From a virus: a DNA stretch of 31,889 nucleotides. This document shows positions 7,633 through 31,889 of this stretch, one piece after another. The notes beneath the pieces are model-generated. The model searched no databases. It was not told the origin of the DNA and worked only from the letters and a program-made list of their open reading frames with translations. Every line of letters begins with the position of its first letter. Position 1 is the first letter of the stretch. Both the position numbers and the translations under genes were made by a program. Where the stretch lies: the IMG/VR virus record IMGVR_UViG_3300037170_000172, positions 1-31,889 of that record. One strand, 5' to 3'.

Positions 7633-8979
7633 CTACGCGGAGAGCTGCAAGGTGTAGGGCCGGATCAGCTGAAGCTTGGTGAGGGTGCCGCCCGTCACGC
7701 TCTTTGTGAAGGTCTTCTCCAGCACCCACATGTTTTCGTGTACGTCGCCGACGTCGTCGTCTACCTGCGCCAACGTGTTGACGGTCCACGGGTGCCCGTC
7801 TTGTGTGTGCCCCAGGACCTCGTACGTGACCGACAGCGCCTTCTGCTGGCGGTTCGCCATCTCGCGGCGTGTGAAGGCCTCGAGCTGCGCGAGGTTCTTG
7901 CTCTCGTCGTCCTTCAGAAAGAACGGCTTGGCGATCAACGGGTCCCCCTGGGGCCTTGGTAGGGACGCGAGTTGCGAGCGTAGCGGGAGAACCTTCGCCG
8001 TGGGGTACCGCGCCTGGATGGCCTGCACCTCCGGCAGCGGGGTGCCGTTGTCGTCCAGCCCGGTGAGCTCGTTGATCATAATGATCCGGAGCTTGCTCTT
8101 CTCAGTGTCCTGCCCGCCGCCGAACCCAGTCGCAACGATGCAGCTTGGTTGACTCTCGAGGTCAAACGTGGGGCCGCCTCGAATGATGTTGTTCGCGGGT
8201 CCAACCGGGCTCTTGCGCACGAGCTTCTGATTTGGTGTGCTGGCGAAGTCGGGTTGGTCAACCACCACTCCCGAGCCGTCCGCCATCGCCCAAAGGTAGT
8301 ACCCGAGCCGACGCAGAAGCCGCTCTAGGAAGGCGTACACGCCTTCGCCCGCGTGAGGCTTCGCTTGCTGCAATGGCAGCGTCTTCAGGTCCGGCCTGTT
8401 GGGGTAGAGCACCTGCGTGTCGCTTGCAGTCGTGTACGCGAACGACAGCGAACCGTTGGCTCCCTCCGTGATGTTGGCGATCTGCGCCTGAAACGACACG
8501 GACGAGCCAGAGGCGCCCGGTTGGTAGCCGGACATGAGGTAGCGGTTGTACAGGTCCGCGTTGTAGAATGTCGTGATGCCGAATGGCTTGAGCGTGGCGC
8601 CTAGCACATCCACGATCGTGAGGCCGGGGGCGAACCGGAACCGAGGGTCCACGGTGGCGGTGACGACCGGACCGAGGATGTCACGCCCTGCGATCGTGAT
8701 GTGCGTCCCGCCCGACGTGTCGCCTTCCACGTGCTTGCGCTCTAGATATCCAGTGCATTGAGGATTGTTGTTCACGCGAAGCTGTACACGTGCCCCGGGG
8801 ACGAGCGCTGCCAGTAGCGACGGGTCGCCGTCCCCGATCGCGAACTCCCAACCTGACGTGGGGACCAACACCTTCTGGTTGAAGCTGTACCACTCCCAGT
8901 TCTTGATCTCGCCGCCGTAGTCCAGTAGCGCCAGACTCACTGTGTCAATCTCCGAGGAGCCGTTCGGGATCGTGGTCAT
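7633..8979 (-). CDS. baseplate hub protein (Mu gp44/T4 gp27-like)
   Basis: This 448-aa protein takes ATG 8979, overlapping the preceding stop by four nt, as start. Downstream in-frame methionines would lose the conserved beginning. It has the hub layout: an N-terminal beta domain (NWEWYSFNQKVLVPTSGWEFAIGD), then GYLERKHVEGDTSGGTHITIAGRDIL at about residues 80-105. That is the conserved G.i......d..g...I.GRd pattern of gp27/gp44 hubs. Next come YAFLERLLRRLGYYLWAMADGSGVVVDQP and a C-terminal half with VTYEVLGHTQDGHPWTVNTLAQVDDD. It links the tube to the spike encoded next. Confidence 0.85.
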   Translation of the reverse strand: MTTIPNGSSEIDTVSLALLDYGGEIKNWEWYSFNQKVLVPTSGWEFAIGDGDPSLLAALVPGARVQLRVNNNPQCTGYLERKHVEGDTSGGTHITIAGRDILGPVVTATVDPRFRFAPGLTIVDVLGATLKPFGITTFYNADLYNRYLMSGYQPGASGSSVSFQAQIANITEGANGSLSFAYTTASDTQVLYPNRPDLKTLPLQQAKPHAGEGVYAFLERLLRRLGYYLWAMADGSGVVVDQPDFASTPNQKLVRKSPVGPANNIIRGGPTFDLESQPSCIVATGFGGGQDTEKSKLRIIMINELTGLDDNGTPLPEVQAIQARYPTAKVLPLRSQLASLPRPQGDPLIAKPFFLKDDESKNLAQLEAFTRREMANRQQKALSVTYEVLGHTQDGHPWTVNTLAQVDDDVGDVHENMWVLEKTFTKSVTGGTLTKLQLIRPYTLQLSA

Positions 8980-9956
8980 GGCGAGTAGTACGTCACGATC
9001 GTCTGCGGAGGGATCAGCGCCGAACGTGCCAGGCTTGGGTTGAGCTTCAGAAGCGTGGACACGTCCGTCTTGAGCTTCGTTGTCAGGGAAGGCAGAGTCG
9101 AATACTTGGGCGTCACGTAGTAGCTGACCGCCTTCGACTGCTGCAACTGCTTGTCTCGCATCGCGTGCAGCGCGGAGACCAGGCGCATGGTGGCGTCCGA
9201 CAGTCCAGGGACGTAACCGAAGGCCTCCGCGATGCCCATGAGCGAATTGATAACCTGCGCGATCTTGGCGTTGACCTGCATCACGAGCAGGTTCCACTCA
9301 TCACCGATGGCCTCGATCGAGCTGACGAAGGCGGACAGCGAGATTCCTCCCGTGCCTGTGTCGGGGGGAGGCGTGAGTGTCATGATCGAATCGTCCAGCG
9401 TATTGGCTGCTGCCGTCGCGATCGTGAGTGTCGAGGTGGAGGCGAGGGTCGCCGCGTCACCATCTGCGATGGTCTCGCCGAAGGACACGAGCAGCACGAC
9501 GCCGCCGCGGAAGTTGGGGTCCAGCGTCTCTCCCCACGTAAGAGCCTTGCAGTTGCGTGACCCGTAGGTCGGGTGCACGAGGGGCCCGTCGCTCCTGTCC
9601 TCTACCGCCGTGAGGAATTGCAGCAGCACCGTGGGAAACAGTGGATCTTCCCAGTCCTCCATGTCGCCCGTCCAGAGGCCGTTGACGAAGGGGATCTTGA
9701 GCGTGAACTCGTTGTACTTCTGCCCGGTGTTTTCGAGGCGTGCGCCGTTGCGATCCATGAACTGGTGCACCACGACGTTGTGGCCGCCTTTCATGTCGAC
9801 CGACATCGACGGGAACGAGATACCGCGCCACGATGTGCCCTGTAGCTGCGCGAGCACGTCGGGCGACGTCGGAGGCGGGCCCTTGGGCCCTTTCACGGGC
9901 GGGTTCGCCAGCGCGTCCGAAATGTTGTTTGCGAGGGCGCTGCCAGGTATGGGCAT
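8976..9956 (-). CDS. DNA circulation/tail protein with LysM-like end (Mu gp43-like)
   Basis: This 326-aa protein starts ATG 9956, sharing one base with the tape-measure stop (TGATG). The segment TSWRGISFPSMSVDMKGGHNVVVHQFMDRNG (from about residue 41) matches the DNA-circularisation N-terminal family: WRG..F, GGH and H.F.dR. The C-terminus (YSTLPSLTTKLKTDVSTLLKLNPSLARSALIPPQTIVTYY) looks like a LysM-type module with its L..LN......ip.gt.v pattern. The position between tape measure and hub matches Mu gp43. It is a tail-tip structural protein despite the historical family name. Confidence 0.8.
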   Translation of the reverse strand: MPIPGSALANNISDALANPPVKGPKGPPPTSPDVLAQLQGTSWRGISFPSMSVDMKGGHNVVVHQFMDRNGARLENTGQKYNEFTLKIPFVNGLWTGDMEDWEDPLFPTVLLQFLTAVEDRSDGPLVHPTYGSRNCKALTWGETLDPNFRGGVVLLVSFGETIADGDAATLASTSTLTIATAAANTLDDSIMTLTPPPDTGTGGISLSAFVSSIEAIGDEWNLLVMQVNAKIAQVINSLMGIAEAFGYVPGLSDATMRLVSALHAMRDKQLQQSKAVSYYVTPKYSTLPSLTTKLKTDVSTLLKLNPSLARSALIPPQTIVTYYSP

Positions 9957-12340
9957 CAGCGATCCGTGAAGGGGCCGATCCGGTTGAGTCCACCGAAGAG
10001 ACGCCCAGTCTCCTCGAGCTGCCGGTTGAGGTTTGCTAGGTGCTCTGCGGTCTTCTTCGCTTCCGCGTCGGCCGCCGTCTGTGCCTCGGAGTGAATCGCT
10101 GCGGCCTCCTTCGCTTCCGACGCCTGTGCGCCGGGGGCATCCGAGCGGGACTCGCGAACTACTGGCGCTGACATGAGCTTCCCGATGTCCGTCTCATCGG
10201 CGTTCAGCGGTCCTATCGCCGGCCCCTTCGACGCCTTCCCGATGTCCGTCTCATCGGCGTTCAGCGGTCCTATCGCCGGCCCCTTCGACGCCTTCCCGAT
10301 GTCCGTCTCATCGGCGTTCAGCGGTCCTATCGCCGGCCCCTTCGACGCCTTCCCGATGTCCGTCTCATCGGCGTTCAGCGGTCCTATCGCCGGCCCCTTC
10401 GACGCCTTCCCCACGTCCGCCTCATCGGCGTTCAGCGGTCCTATCGCCGGCCCCTTCGACGCCTTCCCCACGTCCGCCTCTTGGCTCGCTGCTCCTGGCG
10501 AGTGCTCCGCCGCAGGACTCGTCTTCCCGGCGTTGACGTTCTCTTTGCCGATCTTGTACCCGGGCCGGAAGACGGGAACACCAGTTGCCGTGCGCTCCCA
10601 ATGTCCAACGCGGCCTCGCTCCTGCTCCTGGCCCTCGGCATCCTCCACGAAGTCGAGAATCTTGCGGGTGTCGAGCGGGTCTTTGTTCTTGCGCGCCTCC
10701 CAGTGCCCTCGGCCGTGTGTCGCCGGGAAGCGCGTGTTCGCGCCTTCGTCCAGCGCCCATGTCTGCACGCGCCCGGCCTCGGTCTCGCTCCCCGTGGCCT
10801 TGTCAAACCAGCCCTTAACCTTCCCAATGCCCTTGGCGATGTCTATCAGCAGCTCGGCTGAGACGAACATGGCGCGAGTCATGATCACGGCCGCTTCCCC
10901 GATCTTGGGCGCTGCGACGACAAGCTCGTCCACGAACTTGCCGATCGAGGGGGAGCCCGCGAGGATGGCGGCCTTGATCTTGGTCATGGCGGCTTCGATC
11001 CGTTCGCCGTCCGTGGCCATCACGGCATCCCGCTTCTCACTCTCCGCCGCCATGGTGGTGTTCGACGTGGCCAGTGTGCGGATGAAATCTTCAACCGCGG
11101 TTGCCCCCGCTTCCTTGGCCTGAAGGTCTGTCTTCCCCGCAGCCTTCGCAGCGGTGCGCGCTTCCGAGTAGGTGCCTTGGTAGCTTGAGATGAGCTTCGC
11201 CGCTGGCTCGGTGAAACCCATGCCGTGAAGGGTCGTGACGTTGCCAGCGGTGCGCCGGTAGAAGTCCCCGATCATCTTGATGGGGTCCACGATCGTCTCG
11301 ACGCCCCCAAGTTTCGCGATCGACTTCGGCGACAGCGCCTTGCCGATCCGTAGGGAGTCCTGCGAGAAGGCTTGCAGGCCCTCGGCTGCAGACTCCACGC
11401 TGCCGAATCCTGTGCGGCGAGATGTCTGTAGAATCGCATTCGCCGTCGCAACCTTGGTAAACCAGTCGCCCCCGAACTTTTCCGCGGGGGCTGTGAGCCG
11501 ACCGCCGAGCATCGCGAGCTCGCGCATCGGAACCGAGCCCGCCTCGCCCTGCGCGGTGAGGGCGAGCATCATCTTCGTGAGGTCTTCCTTTTTTTGGCCC
11601 GGCCTGTATAGGGCCGCGGCCATTTCGGAGAGAGACCCCATGTCCAGTCCGCGGCCCTTGGAAAGGGTCGCTAGGGACTGCATCATCTCCAAGCCCAAAC
11701 CGGGTTCGCCGGTCTTGTCTTGGAACCTCCCAGCGGCTTCCAGGATGTCGCCCGGCGCCACGTTGTTGCGGATCCCGATCGACCGCGCGGACCCCTCGAC
11801 GCCCTCCGCGGTGAGCTTGCCGCCGCTGTTGTTCGCGATCTGCACCGATCGCGTTTTGAGCTGCATCGCCGGCCGGATGACCTCATTGATCACGAAGCCC
11901 GAGAACTGGCGGAGGCTGGCGGACGCTAGGTTGATTGCGGCGGACATTCCGCCGATGGCGAGACCTGCGACCCCGGCCGCCTTGAGCATGCCGCCCATGC
12001 CCTCTCCCTGCATGAAGGCGCCGTAGACGCTGCCGTCACGGGACGGCTTCCCAACCGCGGCGTTGAATTGGTGCTCCGCTCGAGCTGCGCGGATCTCGGC
12101 AGCGCGGGCCGCGTTCACTTCTTTGACGAGCTTCGCTTCTTCGCGCAACCCGCCAATCTTCGCCTTGAGCTCCTTCTGCGCCTCCGCTGTGCGCTTGCCG
12201 CTTCCCGCCGCTCCCGCCGCCGCGATGTCCTTCTCGAGGTCGAGATAGCTCTGCTTGACCCCTCGGAGGGCGCTCGTAACGGCTTGCGTCCCCTCCGTTT
12301 TGAGGACGATGCTGATCGGGGTCTGCTTGGATCCTGCCAT
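9956..12340 (-). CDS. tail tape measure protein
   Basis: This 794-aa protein takes ATG 12340, whose A is shared with a TAA stop of the frameshifted chaperone product. An upstream in-frame GTG at 12388 is less likely. N-terminal residues 20-110 are a helical coiled-coil segment (LRGVKQSYLDLEKDIAAAG to EIRAARAEHQF). A hydrophobic Gly/Ala/Met-rich segment follows (MGGMLKAAGVAGLAIGGMSAAINLA, about residues 125-150), the usual membrane-inserting section. A long helical region leads to a 19-residue tandem repeat near the C-terminus, then EAKEAAAIHSEAQTAADAEAKKTAEHLANLNRQLEE. Length, position and hydrophobic block support the call. Confidence 0.85.
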   Translation of the reverse strand: MAGSKQTPISIVLKTEGTQAVTSALRGVKQSYLDLEKDIAAAGAAGSGKRTAEAQKELKAKIGGLREEAKLVKEVNAARAAEIRAARAEHQFNAAVGKPSRDGSVYGAFMQGEGMGGMLKAAGVAGLAIGGMSAAINLASASLRQFSGFVINEVIRPAMQLKTRSVQIANNSGGKLTAEGVEGSARSIGIRNNVAPGDILEAAGRFQDKTGEPGLGLEMMQSLATLSKGRGLDMGSLSEMAAALYRPGQKKEDLTKMMLALTAQGEAGSVPMRELAMLGGRLTAPAEKFGGDWFTKVATANAILQTSRRTGFGSVESAAEGLQAFSQDSLRIGKALSPKSIAKLGGVETIVDPIKMIGDFYRRTAGNVTTLHGMGFTEPAAKLISSYQGTYSEARTAAKAAGKTDLQAKEAGATAVEDFIRTLATSNTTMAAESEKRDAVMATDGERIEAAMTKIKAAILAGSPSIGKFVDELVVAAPKIGEAAVIMTRAMFVSAELLIDIAKGIGKVKGWFDKATGSETEAGRVQTWALDEGANTRFPATHGRGHWEARKNKDPLDTRKILDFVEDAEGQEQERGRVGHWERTATGVPVFRPGYKIGKENVNAGKTSPAAEHSPGAASQEADVGKASKGPAIGPLNADEADVGKASKGPAIGPLNADETDIGKASKGPAIGPLNADETDIGKASKGPAIGPLNADETDIGKASKGPAIGPLNADETDIGKLMSAPVVRESRSDAPGAQASEAKEAAAIHSEAQTAADAEAKKTAEHLANLNRQLEETGRLFGGLNRIGPFTDR
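10178..10480. repeat. 57-bp tandem repeat in tape measure gene, 5 full copies plus 18 bp
   Basis: In minus-strand reading the unit encodes the 19 residues ETDIGKASKGPAIGPLNAD. The two copies nearest 10480 encode EADVG and the others ETDIG. Copies are otherwise identical at DNA level. The array is in frame and alters only the length of a linker-like region between the helical body and the C-terminal coiled coil of the tape measure. Confidence 0.95.
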
Positions 12341-12477
12341 TAGGTCGTCTTCGGCGGGTGCGTTCTTACGTACTCTCGGGCAGCCCACCAGGCGAGGAGC
12401 TGTCCGTCGGTGAGCTGCACAATCGGGAGGCCATAAACCTCATGAGCTGACTCTGAACTCCCAATGACATTTCGCCT
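12340..12477 (-). CDS. tail assembly chaperone, -1 frameshift extension (gpGT-like)
   Basis: The extension is the minus-strand frame entered by a -1 slip on CCCTTTA at 12477-12483. It adds 45 residues starting RRNVIGSSESAHEVYGLP and including LTDGQLLAWWAAREYVR, giving a fusion of about 211 residues. It ends TAA at 12340-12342, sharing one base with the tape-measure ATG. The extension has no start codon that would suit independent expression, apart from an internal GTG near its middle. WW-AAREYVR is a pronounced, non-random helical motif with third-position G/C bias. Production by frameshift is inference from the heptamer and the open frame. Confidence 0.65.
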   Translation of the reverse strand, partial: RRNVIGSSESAHEVYGLPIVQLTDGQLLAWWAAREYVRTHPPKTT

Positions 12478-12974
12478 AAAGGGTCGGCGCGCGATCCCTC
12501 CGCGATCCTGTCAATCCAAGCCTTGCACTCGGTCTCCGACATCTCGTGCACGATGGGTCCGAGCTCCGCTCGCATCCAGCTGTATTTGAGCACGAGCACA
12601 GCTACCTCGTCCGTGGTGAGCGTGGAGGCGATCGCGTCGGGTGTCGGGAAGAAGCCTTTGTCCATGTCCCCTACTCGGCGGCAGCATCGGAAGAGCAGCT
12701 CACAGGACGAACGCGATTCGTAGAGCGCCTCGTAGGCGAATGACTGCTCGTCCTTCTTGGCCTGCGCCTTGGCCTCGGCTAGCCGAGCGCGCACCCACCG
12801 CTCGGCAGAAGCGGTAATCGCCATTGTCTCTGTCTGCGTGAGGACGAGCATCTCGAGCTGCCGCACGGATCCATCCTTGGCCTTGCGCGGATACTCGACG
12901 GATCGGTGCGGGCGCGGGAGCTGCGTGAGCTCGAGCCACAGCTCGTCGGCGGGAAGGTCGGGGGGTTGGCTCAT
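12366..12974 (-). CDS. tail assembly chaperone, zero-frame product
   Basis: This 202-aa protein has an ATG two nt after the tube gene stop. It is a predominantly helical acidic/basic protein (WVRARLAEAKAQAKKDEQSFAYEALYESRSSCELLFRC) located between the tail tube and tape measure genes. That is the position of lambda gpG, Mu gp41 and similar tail assembly chaperones that load the tape measure. At codons 165-166 lies a slippery heptamer that gives a second product. The unshifted C-terminus after that point (36 residues, GEMSLGVQSQL to GLPEST) is unremarkable. Function comes from position and the frameshift architecture; the sequence itself is not conserved enough for me to name a family. Confidence 0.75.
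   Translation of the reverse strand: MSQPPDLPADELWLELTQLPRPHRSVEYPRKAKDGSVRQLEMLVLTQTETMAITASAERWVRARLAEAKAQAKKDEQSFAYEALYESRSSCELLFRCCRRVGDMDKGFFPTPDAIASTLTTDEVAVLVLKYSWMRAELGPIVHEMSETECKAWIDRIAEGSRADPLGEMSLGVQSQLMRFMASRLCSSPTDSSSPGGLPEST
12477..12483 (-). promoter_or_regulatory. -1 programmed ribosomal frameshift slippery site CCCTTTA
   Basis: Read on the minus strand, zero-frame codons are GAC CCT TTA. The heptamer C CCT TTA fits X XXY YYZ, allowing both tRNAs to re-pair on CCC and TTT. The zero frame continues to 12366. The -1 frame is open to the base that starts the tape-measure gene. Confidence 0.7.
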
Positions 12975-12975
12975 C

Positions 12976-13350
12976 TCAATCCCAGGTGCTCATCTGCCCG
13001 ACGAACGGGAACGACAAGGCGGAAGCGGAATTCACCGCGTGCGTGAATTCGTCGCTTTCGATGAACGCCTTTACGGTCAGCGTGTTGCCTGCGGCGAAGG
13101 TCGTGATCTCCACGACCGTGAGGCCCTGAATGTTGTCGCCGGGGTCGTATTCGAAGTCCACCGCGGGGACCGCGTTCTTAATGGTCCCCTCCACGATGGC
13201 CGCCCCCGGGGAGAGCCCGGCGAACCCCTTCGCAACGGTGTTCACCCGCTGCGCGTTGGAGGTGCGCTTGAGGCTGATTTCGGTCTCCTCCGCGAGGAGC
13301 TTTCCGTTGATGTAGACGGTCCCCTTGGTGTACAGCCCTAGGTCAGACAT
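12976..13350 (-). CDS. tail tube protein
   Basis: This 124-aa protein starts ATG at 13350, sharing one base with the sheath stop. It is a small beta-rich protein (GTVYINGKLLAEETEISLKRTSNAQRVNTVAKGFAGLSPG) with the features of Mu gpM/phage tube proteins: an early VYINGKLL strand, then SN.Q.V.T...G, then an EGTIKNAVP strand and the ITTFAAG strand. Its location immediately after the sheath gene and before the chaperone is diagnostic. It polymerises as rings around the tape measure and forms the inner tube. Confidence 0.85.
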   Translation of the reverse strand: MSDLGLYTKGTVYINGKLLAEETEISLKRTSNAQRVNTVAKGFAGLSPGAAIVEGTIKNAVPAVDFEYDPGDNIQGLTVVEITTFAAGNTLTVKAFIESDEFTHAVNSASALSFPFVGQMSTWD

Positions 13351-14864
13351 TACGCCACCTGCTGGATCGACGCTGCGATCTGGTGAAGGACGTCGACCGG
13401 CTGAAGTGGGATGAGCGCGGACATTCGCGTCGTGGGCGATGAATTGCGGCTCACCTGTGTGTTGGCGACGATCGTGGCCACGTTTTGCAGCAGCCCGTTC
13501 TCGTCATAGTCGCGGGTGAGCCGGTTGATCAGGGCCCGGTAGTTGCGCGGAGATACGCAGTTCGGCCCGGGATCCGCATCGTTCGGCCCGGGGTCGTTGA
13601 CCACGTTTTTCCCCGAGAGTTGGGCCGTTTCTTTGGCCTTCAGATCGTCTGCGTACCGGTCGCAGATCGTTACCTTGTGGGAGTCTCGGATGCGGTAGTC
13701 CACCGTGCTACCGTTCAGACTCCGAGTCGTGATCCGTGACACGATGTACGTTGCGCCCGTGGCGAGCACACCAATCGGGGTAACACCGCCATTGAGCGCC
13801 GAGACGAACTGCGAGCGCGTCGGTGCCTGGCCGGACAGGGGGGCCTTGAGTCGCCAGTTAGACGCGCTCTCGGATGAGTTGCCGTACCCGTCGAAGTTGC
13901 ACAGTGGAATGACGTTGGCTTCCTCGAGCGTGTACGCCGCCGCTGCCATAGCAGCGAGCTCGCACGGCGGGACGTCGCTCTGGTAGAGCCACACGAGCTC
14001 TGCTCTGGCGCCGTTAAGCCCCTGCGCGATAGAGAGCGCGTTGCTCACGATATCCTGTGACCCGACGACGAGCCGACCCGTAAGGCCGTTCGTCGGCAGC
14101 GATTGCGTGTTGATCTGCGCGAGCGCGGCGCCTGTCTGGGTCGCGTCCTCCGCTGCCGAGACGACGTAGTAGTACCGAGTCCCAACGATCGCGGCAAGGG
14201 CCGTGGCGTTCGAGTCCGAAACCGTCCCGCCCGCCTGGAGCGTGGAGGCCGTGGGGGTCACCGTGGTTCCGACTGCCGCCGGCTTGATCTGGGCAAAGTA
14301 CCGGATGAAGTTCGCCCGGAGACCCTTCTGCTTCGACGTCAGGGTGATTACCCCGGCGCTGGCGGACGCCGTGACGGGCCACGCCGTCTTGCCGTTGATG
14401 TTGACCGCCGCCGCGGCAGCGATCGTTGTCGGCGTGTCGCCGGTCGCGATCCCTGTGTCCACGAACTGGTCCGCTACGAAAATCCGTAGGGTTGCCGCGC
14501 CCGTCGAGGCGGTCGTGAGAGTAATCGTTCCCGTGGATGCCGCCGCGGAGCCTCCCTCTGCGACTGCGATCGCGAAGAGGGGCGTCACTTGGTTCACCGT
14601 CGTGAAGCGCACGAACATCCGGTGCAGCTCAGATCCGGCACCGAAGAGCCCGATCGCGTCGGCCTCCGAGGCCAGGGTTACCGGAGTTGCTGGACCGTAG
14701 ACGGTGGCCGCGCTCGCGTTACCCGTCGAGAGCATGCCGCCAACAAGGATCGCGGCGTACGTGGCCGTGCCGCCCGAGGCGGGCCCCTGCGCGAAGAGGA
14801 TGTCGTTGTATTCGCCGGGAACCGGATCGTTTGCGGCCAGTCCGGTGATTGAAATATCAGCCAT
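13350..14864 (-). CDS. contractile tail sheath protein
   Basis: This 504-aa protein has an ATG overlapping the preceding gene by eight nt. It begins MADISITGLAANDPVPGEYNDILFAQGP. It has an N-terminal core (RMFVRFTTVNQVTPLFAIAVAEG), beta arms in the central region, and conserved C-terminal sheath features. These include the RYYYVVSAAEDA segment, the TPIGVLATGATYIVSRITTRSLNG strand (residues about 370-395), then YRIRDSHKVTICDRYADDLKAKE and the terminal LIPLQPVDVLHQIAASIQ. Length and order match Mu gpL relatives. It forms the contracting outer tail layer. Confidence 0.9.
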   Translation of the reverse strand: MADISITGLAANDPVPGEYNDILFAQGPASGGTATYAAILVGGMLSTGNASAATVYGPATPVTLASEADAIGLFGAGSELHRMFVRFTTVNQVTPLFAIAVAEGGSAAASTGTITLTTASTGAATLRIFVADQFVDTGIATGDTPTTIAAAAAVNINGKTAWPVTASASAGVITLTSKQKGLRANFIRYFAQIKPAAVGTTVTPTASTLQAGGTVSDSNATALAAIVGTRYYYVVSAAEDATQTGAALAQINTQSLPTNGLTGRLVVGSQDIVSNALSIAQGLNGARAELVWLYQSDVPPCELAAMAAAAYTLEEANVIPLCNFDGYGNSSESASNWRLKAPLSGQAPTRSQFVSALNGGVTPIGVLATGATYIVSRITTRSLNGSTVDYRIRDSHKVTICDRYADDLKAKETAQLSGKNVVNDPGPNDADPGPNCVSPRNYRALINRLTRDYDENGLLQNVATIVANTQVSRNSSPTTRMSALIPLQPVDVLHQIAASIQQVA

Positions 14865-31249: not shown

Positions 31250-31889
31250 ATGGCTAAGGTTCTTTGTCTGCGCACGTGCACCTCTAAGATGACTTCGTAC
31301 AACGATTTTCGGTGGCCCGAGAGCGGGCACGTTGAAGCGCCAGACTGGAGCCCGGTGGCGCGCTGCGGGCATGGGCTCCACGGCCTGCTCTGGGGTGAGG
31401 GCGACGGGTCGCTGCTCAACTACGACGTCGACTCGAAATGGCTCGTGGTGCAGGTTGACGATGATGCGATCGTGGACCTGAAGGGAAAGGTGAAGTTCCC
31501 TGGATGCGATGTCGTTTTCTGCGGAGACCAGGGCGGCGCCACCTCGTACCTAGCCGCGCACGGCTGCGCCCACATGTCGATCGTGGGCGCGACGGTCGTC
31601 GGCGGCCACGGCGCGACGGTCACCGCAGGCGACAGGGCGACGGTCACCGCCGGCCACAGCGCGACGGTCGTCGCCGGCGACAGGGCGAAGGTAACCGCCG
31701 GCGACTACGCGACGGCCATCGGCGGCTACGGCGCGACGGTCGTCGCCGGCGACATGGCGACGGTCACCGCCTGCGACAGGGCGACGGTAACCGCCTGCGA
31801 CTACGCGAAGGTAACCGCCGGCGACTACGCGACGGTCATCGCCGGCCACAGCGCGACGGTCACAGGCGGCGACTACGCGAAGGTAACCG
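31250..31889 (+). CDS. DUF7666-like protein with octapeptide repeats (C-terminus beyond window)
   Basis: ATG 31250 follows an AGGAG at good spacing; the frame is open to the window end (213 codons). The N-terminal globular part (about residues 1-105) contains RTCTSKMTSYNDFRWPESG, VEAPDW and CGHGLHGLLWGEGDG, followed by NYDVDSKWLVVQVDDDAIVDLKGKVKFPGC, a pattern I recognise in phage proteins with a DUF7666-type N-terminus. From residue 114 an octapeptide repeat runs to the edge: AT(V)(T/V)AGD(R/Y), AKVTAGDY and variants. Such repeats could form a right-handed beta-solenoid. The function of the family is unknown to me. Confidence 0.7.
   Translation, partial: MAKVLCLRTCTSKMTSYNDFRWPESGHVEAPDWSPVARCGHGLHGLLWGEGDGSLLNYDVDSKWLVVQVDDDAIVDLKGKVKFPGCDVVFCGDQGGATSYLAAHGCAHMSIVGATVVGGHGATVTAGDRATVTAGHSATVVAGDRAKVTAGDYATAIGGYGATVVAGDMATVTACDRATVTACDYAKVTAGDYATVIAGHSATVTGGDYAKVT
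31589..31889. repeat. 24-bp tandem repeat (octapeptide), at least 12 units
   Basis: In frame with the gene above, units such as GCGACGGTCACCGCCGGCGA recur every 24 nt to the window edge with mainly minor substitutions. Variable positions alternate between D and H/Y at unit position 7 and R, Y, S, M or G at position 8. Confidence 0.9.

Follow-up and report, generated by a model that had tools for sequence, protein, structure and literature searches.

The window analysed here is the whole of IMG/VR virus record IMGVR_UViG_3300037170_000172, a 31.9-kb sequence of 31,889 nucleotides (nt) that carries a putative tail assembly chaperone gene on its minus strand. The zero frame of this gene (12366..12974, minus strand) encodes a 202-residue product, the TAC-N form, which was assigned from the list of open reading frames (ORFs), from 12 homologues and from an AlphaFold/Foldseek match to PDB entry 2ob9. 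A slippery heptamer, C_CCT_TTA, lies in zero-frame phase at 12477..12483 (minus strand) and is the sole in-frame XXXYYYZ heptamer of the gene. Starting 27 nt upstream of the heptamer, the −1 frame is uninterrupted as far as a TAA stop at 12340..12342 (minus strand), which has one base in common with the ATG of the tape measure gene (12340-12338). Past the slip, the −1 frame comprises 45 codons at 12343..12477 (minus strand; RRNVIGSSESAHEVYGLPIVQLTDGQLLAWWAAREYVRTHPPKTT), which include the stretch QLTDGQLLAWWAAR and are termed here the −1 C-domain. The two products would share their N-terminal 166 residues and differ in their tails, 36 residues in the zero frame versus 45 in the −1 frame, giving total lengths of 202 and 211 residues; the two stops are 26 nt apart. 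An earlier note, made from the sequence alone, had proposed a canonical −1 programmed frameshift at this site. The present analysis confirmed its placement and phasing of CCCTTTA (12483-12477), its −1 frame running to a TAA (12342-12340) that overlaps the tape measure ATG by one base, and its product lengths, tail lengths and earlier zero-frame stop.

Used alone as a query, the chaperone protein retrieved no relatives from viral contigs, genome contigs or phages. Relatives were reached with the tail sheath protein as bait followed by alignment, which included a prophage in Polyangium sp. 15x6 (L018), and by a profile search over 318 Polyangia-class genomes. The resulting working set of 13 sequences consists of the window gene and 12 homologues in the same gene slot (L002, L003, L012, L013, L014, L015, L016, L017, L018, L021, L022 and L024), drawn from IMG/VR viruses and from Polyangium and other Polyangia-class genomes. 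Nine of the 12 homologues share 38-51% identity with the window protein, and the arrangement recurs in separately assembled records that span 35% to 69% GC. The virus is Mu-like and related to prophages of predatory soil bacteria.

Comparison of homologues, which the earlier note had named as a check, bore out its proposal: the heptamer was kept in 11 of 12 and a −1 tail with an LTDGQLLAWxAAR-type motif in all 12. The heptamer occupies the same codon in ten homologues, with A, C, T and G all represented at the Z position, and counting one that is a single codon off it is present in 12 of the 13 sequences with the window included. CCCTTTA is found in the window and six homologues (L002, L003, L016, L018, L021 and L024), CCCTTTC in L012 and L013, CCCTTTT in L014 and CCCTTTG in L015; L017 carries T_TTT_TTG one codon upstream of the shared site. 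Other in-frame XXXYYYZ sites number only 11 in the 2,730 codons of the 13 genes. Given the D-P-L residues and local codon usage, the probability of a heptamer at the site is 0.012 for the window gene, and the TTA codon occurs only twice among 4,455 codons in ten window genes, one of these being the heptamer codon. When amino acids were held fixed and codons resampled from local usage, the probability of a heptamer at the site was 0.001-0.2 per gene. The nominal product over 12 genes is ∼1e-20, which is not corrected for relatedness, and the true joint probability is larger because the genes are related. In E. coli assays, 61 of 64 X_XXZ_ZZN heptamers were frameshift-prone with a strong stimulator, CCCUUUA not being among the three exceptions, and H_HH.U_UU.Y, which covers CCCUUUC and CCCUUUU, ranked among the efficient heptamers (PMC4066793). 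CCCUUUA itself may be a weak slip site, which would fit the low frameshift levels reported for such genes, such as the 6-7% found for two genes in a cluster that resembles an HK97 protein (PMC3711429).

The open −1 frame of the window gene is unsurprising on its own, since the probability of its being open across the tail by chance is 0.48; its significance comes from conservation across the homologues. The −1 tail pattern YGxPxxxLTDGQLLAWxAARR is kept in 13 of 13 sequences, more weakly in L014, L016, L022 and L024, and the stretch LTEGQLLAWYAAR relates to the tail of the Polyangium sp. 15x6 prophage. Codon-position divergence was compared along the gene. Upstream of the heptamer, third-position minus second-position divergence is +0.24 (bootstrap 0.20 to 0.28), while in the second half of the overlap (codons 14-32) the difference is reversed, at −0.12, a value as low as which is seen in none of the 147 equally wide upstream windows (lowest 0.072). 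Overlap codons 1-13 are intermediate, with zero-frame third positions still the most divergent. The reversal in codons 14-32 indicates that the −1 reading is under selection. More distant Polyangia-class relatives (L025, L031, L027 and L030) are without CCCTTTN and have a −1 frame that is open across and past the zero-frame end; L025, L031 and L027 carry a TGR...ELL-like −1 tail.

In all 13 sequences the zero frame continues for 30-65 codons past the slip site, through the coding sequence of the C-domain. The −1 C-domain thus sits inside the zero-frame ORF, and either product can be the longer: relative to the zero-frame stop, the −1 stop ranges from 64 nt upstream to 86 nt downstream, and the frameshift product is the shorter one in L016, L017 and L022. 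By sequence comparison, near-equal product length is not a conserved property, and the −1 C-domain is. The view of the earlier note that frameshifting swaps the C-terminus rather than extending it therefore holds for the window gene but has to be refined for the family. The zero-frame ending is serine-rich, and in the window SSPTDSSSPG is the same DNA that is read as QLTDGQLLAW in the −1 frame. Since one stretch of DNA specifies both endings, conservation of the serine-rich ending is at least in part a consequence of the −1 protein, and this ending is probably for the most part C-domain DNA read out of frame. It is also probably disordered, as judged from the AlphaFold model of the zero-frame product.

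A refinement that is compatible with frameshifting is that both C-termini are functional and selected, the zero-frame tail being no by-product. It is possible that there is some selection on the zero-frame tail: tails of at least 30 codons are present in 13 of 13 sequences (probability of the zero frame staying open this long 0.035-0.82 per genome, the lowest value belonging to the AT-rich L003; summed log10 −5.2, the values not being independent), the first 13 overlap codons retain the zero-frame pattern of divergence, and the model predicts a helix at residues 171-187. In contrast, divergence in codons 14-32 follows the −1 frame rather than the zero frame, the predicted local distance difference test score (pLDDT) of the model is below 50 from residue 182 on, and zero-frame stop positions vary. 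On balance we regard selection on both endings as somewhat unlikely. We rate as equally unlikely the more specific proposal that both endings are selected and that slippage replaces a flexible zero-frame tail with a folded C-domain of similar size that binds the tube. On that proposal, tail assembly in this family would hinge on the C-terminus that a chaperone bears rather than on an added extension.

The route by which ribosomes enter the −1 tail is constrained by the homologues. The −1 frame of L003 and of L024 is open from only 6 nt before the heptamer, which means that the shift does not take place farther upstream, and the 13 sequences share no conserved start codon in the −1 frame. Together these observations leave frameshifting at the heptamer or immediately past it as the only simple route into the tail. 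They bear on the suggestion that a short independent gene, initiated within the chaperone ORF, encodes the −1 tail. Candidate starts for such a gene can be found: in the window a GTG lies in frame 63 nt past the start of the heptamer, and some homologues have a GTG, ATG or TTG 33-45 nt upstream of the heptamer. However, L002, L003, L015 and L018 have no start at all from −60 to +75 in the −1 frame, and a separate gene leaves the conservation of the heptamer unexplained, making this reading very improbable. Slippage by RNA polymerase instead of the ribosome, which is known at long homopolymer runs (PMC3711429), is more improbable still, as the site is C3T3 without a long homopolymer run and its X_XXY_YYZ phase, kept across homologues, is that of tandem tRNA slippage. 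The idea that the heptamer and open −1 frame arose by chance or assembly error in one ordinary gene draws on the ∼48% odds of an open −1 frame over the tail of a GC-rich gene and is refuted by the homologues, by their separately assembled records of 35%-69% GC and by constraint in the −1 frame, and we give it almost no credence.

Candidate stimulators were sought on both sides of the heptamer. A Shine-Dalgarno (SD)-like stretch, GGAGGG, lies in the region −21 to −5 of the window heptamer (12488..12504, minus strand) and was identified as a candidate stimulator by its anti-SD match. An SD-like purine stretch at about −20 to −8 is present in 10 of the 13 genes, where it ranks with the best anti-SD matches in the gene concerned; it is only weak in L021, L022 and L024. 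On the 3′ side, a stem is strong only in L015 and moderate in L018. A 3′ stimulatory structure is not always found in prokaryotic cases of frameshifting (PMC4066793).

The identity of the gene was judged in part from its surroundings and predicted fold. The gene order in the window is sheath, tube, chaperone, tape measure, Mu N-like protein (DNA_circ_N) and GpP-like hub. The tail sheath protein (13350..14864, minus strand) matches phrog_165 with an E-value of 2.2e-59, and the DNA circularization or baseplate hub protein (Mu N-like; 8976..9956, minus strand) matches PF07157 (E 2.7e-11) and phrog_184. The chaperone gene lies between the tube and tape measure genes, both of which were assigned by position and length only. 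The putative tail tube protein (124 residues; 12976..13350, minus strand) occupies the same slot as Mu M and has no significant match to a tail-tube family; the tape measure protein (794 residues; 9956..12340, minus strand), between the chaperone gene and the DNA_circ_N/N-like hub gene, has no family match of its own. The AlphaFold model of the zero-frame chaperone (mean pLDDT 73.5) has a confident core and segments below 50 that include residues 182-202. The best PDB matches found by Foldseek are chains A and B of 2ob9, the HK97 tail assembly chaperone (probability 0.94 and 0.72, E 0.14 and 0.45, respectively), and named tail assembly chaperones recur among the matches to viral structures. 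Gene order and the structural match to the HK97 protein thus back the tail-chaperone reading of the earlier note; position, frameshift, conservation and fold are convincing together, no single item being strong.

Taken with the frameshift evidence, we propose that this gene of a Mu-like, contractile-tailed virus very probably encodes a tail assembly chaperone that undergoes −1 frameshifting, with two products from one gene. Several observations weigh against this proposal. The chaperone has no match in Pfam, PHROGs, NCBIfam or PDB sequences, such similarity not being required in proteins that diverge widely, and none of the Foldseek matches has E < 0.001, so that the structural match is weak by E-value. 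The −1 C-domain was considered as a homologue of lambda T and P2 E′, which it resembles by eye, and profile comparison detected nothing. L022 has an imperfect heptamer, C_CCT_ATC, at the heptamer position, with the −1 tail (FFGVPACQLLDGHVLAWLGAKR) retained. The bootstrap interval for codons 14-32 spans zero (−0.293 to 0.047), but all of it is lower than the upstream interval. Synonymous resampling explains most of the SD-like signal (combined P = 0.035), which is inseparable from amino-acid constraint, and a search for nested structures in the 75 nt downstream of the heptamer revealed no conserved 3′ stem-loop. The frameshift product itself is deduced from the DNA.

In the mechanism that we infer, most ribosomes would produce the 202-residue zero-frame protein, and a minority would slip back by one nucleotide at C_CCU_UUA, with the P-site codon changing from CCU to CCC and the A-site codon from UUA to UUU. 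The slipped ribosomes would make the 211-residue protein with its conserved, different C-domain and end at the start codon of the tape measure gene. By analogy with lambda gpG/gpGT (PMC5009743), the shared domain would coat the tape measure protein and the −1 C-domain would recruit tail tube subunits, and the ratio of the two forms would tune tail assembly. The −1 stop overlaps the tape measure ATG in the window and is within a few nucleotides of a start in several homologues, which makes coupling of tape measure initiation to termination in the −1 frame plausible. L014 has two tandem chaperone paralogues (11898-12485 and 12492-13097) with 34% identity; the heptamer (CCCTTTT) and an open −1 frame are found in the second copy only, and the additional copy is without the heptamer and closed in the −1 frame. 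An extra copy lacking the C-domain is as expected if the form without that domain is needed in excess.

Lambda gpG/gpGT, cited as the precedent in the earlier note, resembles the present system: the chaperone gene lies between the tube and tape measure genes, a −1 slip occurs at a heptamer and the second frame ends at the tape measure start (PMC5009743). In lambda, however, the zero-frame stop ends 18 nt past the heptamer and a further 144 codons are read in the −1 frame, compared with 36 versus 45 codons here. P2 gpE/gpE+E′ shares the contractile tail, the order sheath, tube, chaperone and tape measure, and a −1 frameshift, and its heptamer, T_TTT_TTG, is that of the homologue L017, but E ends 21 nt past the heptamer and E′ adds 57 codons. 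Mu gp41 is a verified frameshift chaperone within the same order (L, M, 41, 42, N, P); it differs in using a −2 shift (PMC5009743), in having a zero-frame product of 144 residues and in having a frameshift product that extends 130 nt past the zero-frame stop. The HK97 chaperone is the best structural match, although with a Foldseek E of 0.14 and 9% identity the likeness is at most one of shared fold. The E. coli dnaX gene is also a programmed −1 frameshift in bacteria whose products have a common N-terminal part, with an upstream SD-like stimulator (PMC5600365), but its frameshift product is the shorter one (PMC3711429), and the SD-like role proposed here is putative. KS10 gp39 was reported to be without a frameshift (PMC2628397); a check for a −1 C-domain concealed in it found no in-frame heptamer and a broken −1 frame.

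Judged against lambda, P2, Mu and the mean slip-to-stop distance of 26 nt in SEA-PHAGES data (PMC10885494), the present arrangement is an unusual variant. The layout with a slip near the stop and a clearly longer minor product, which is usual rather than defining, was not found in these 13 genes. The programmed −1 frameshift is well supported; it is known biology in a new family, one with no model in the libraries searched, whose notable difference is the embedded C-domain. The family suggests that frameshifting chaperones can work without a long −1 extension, and that ∼45 residues appear to be enough, sometimes with a frameshift product that is the shorter of the two. Annotation pipelines would overlook the second product, since nearly all of the −1 domain falls within an intact ORF and there is no conspicuous orphan ORF to reveal it; phages thought to be free of frameshifting could hide one in the same way.

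An Rfam scan of the window gave no match. Within the tape measure gene, positions 10178-10480 contain a 57-bp in-frame tandem repeat in 5.3 copies (19 residues, KASKGPAIGPLNADETDIG-like) near the C-terminal end of the protein. In L015, two tandem tail-tube-like genes (11629-12003 and 12024-12443) lie between the sheath and chaperone genes. A virus with a 57% identical sheath (L004, 5278-6798) has other-looking tube-to-tape-measure genes of 217, 188 and 109 residues in place of the chaperone. The ends of the window record carry tandem repeats at 1-427 and 31587-31889, with a 117-bp unit in 3.6 copies and a 24-bp unit in 12.6 copies, respectively.

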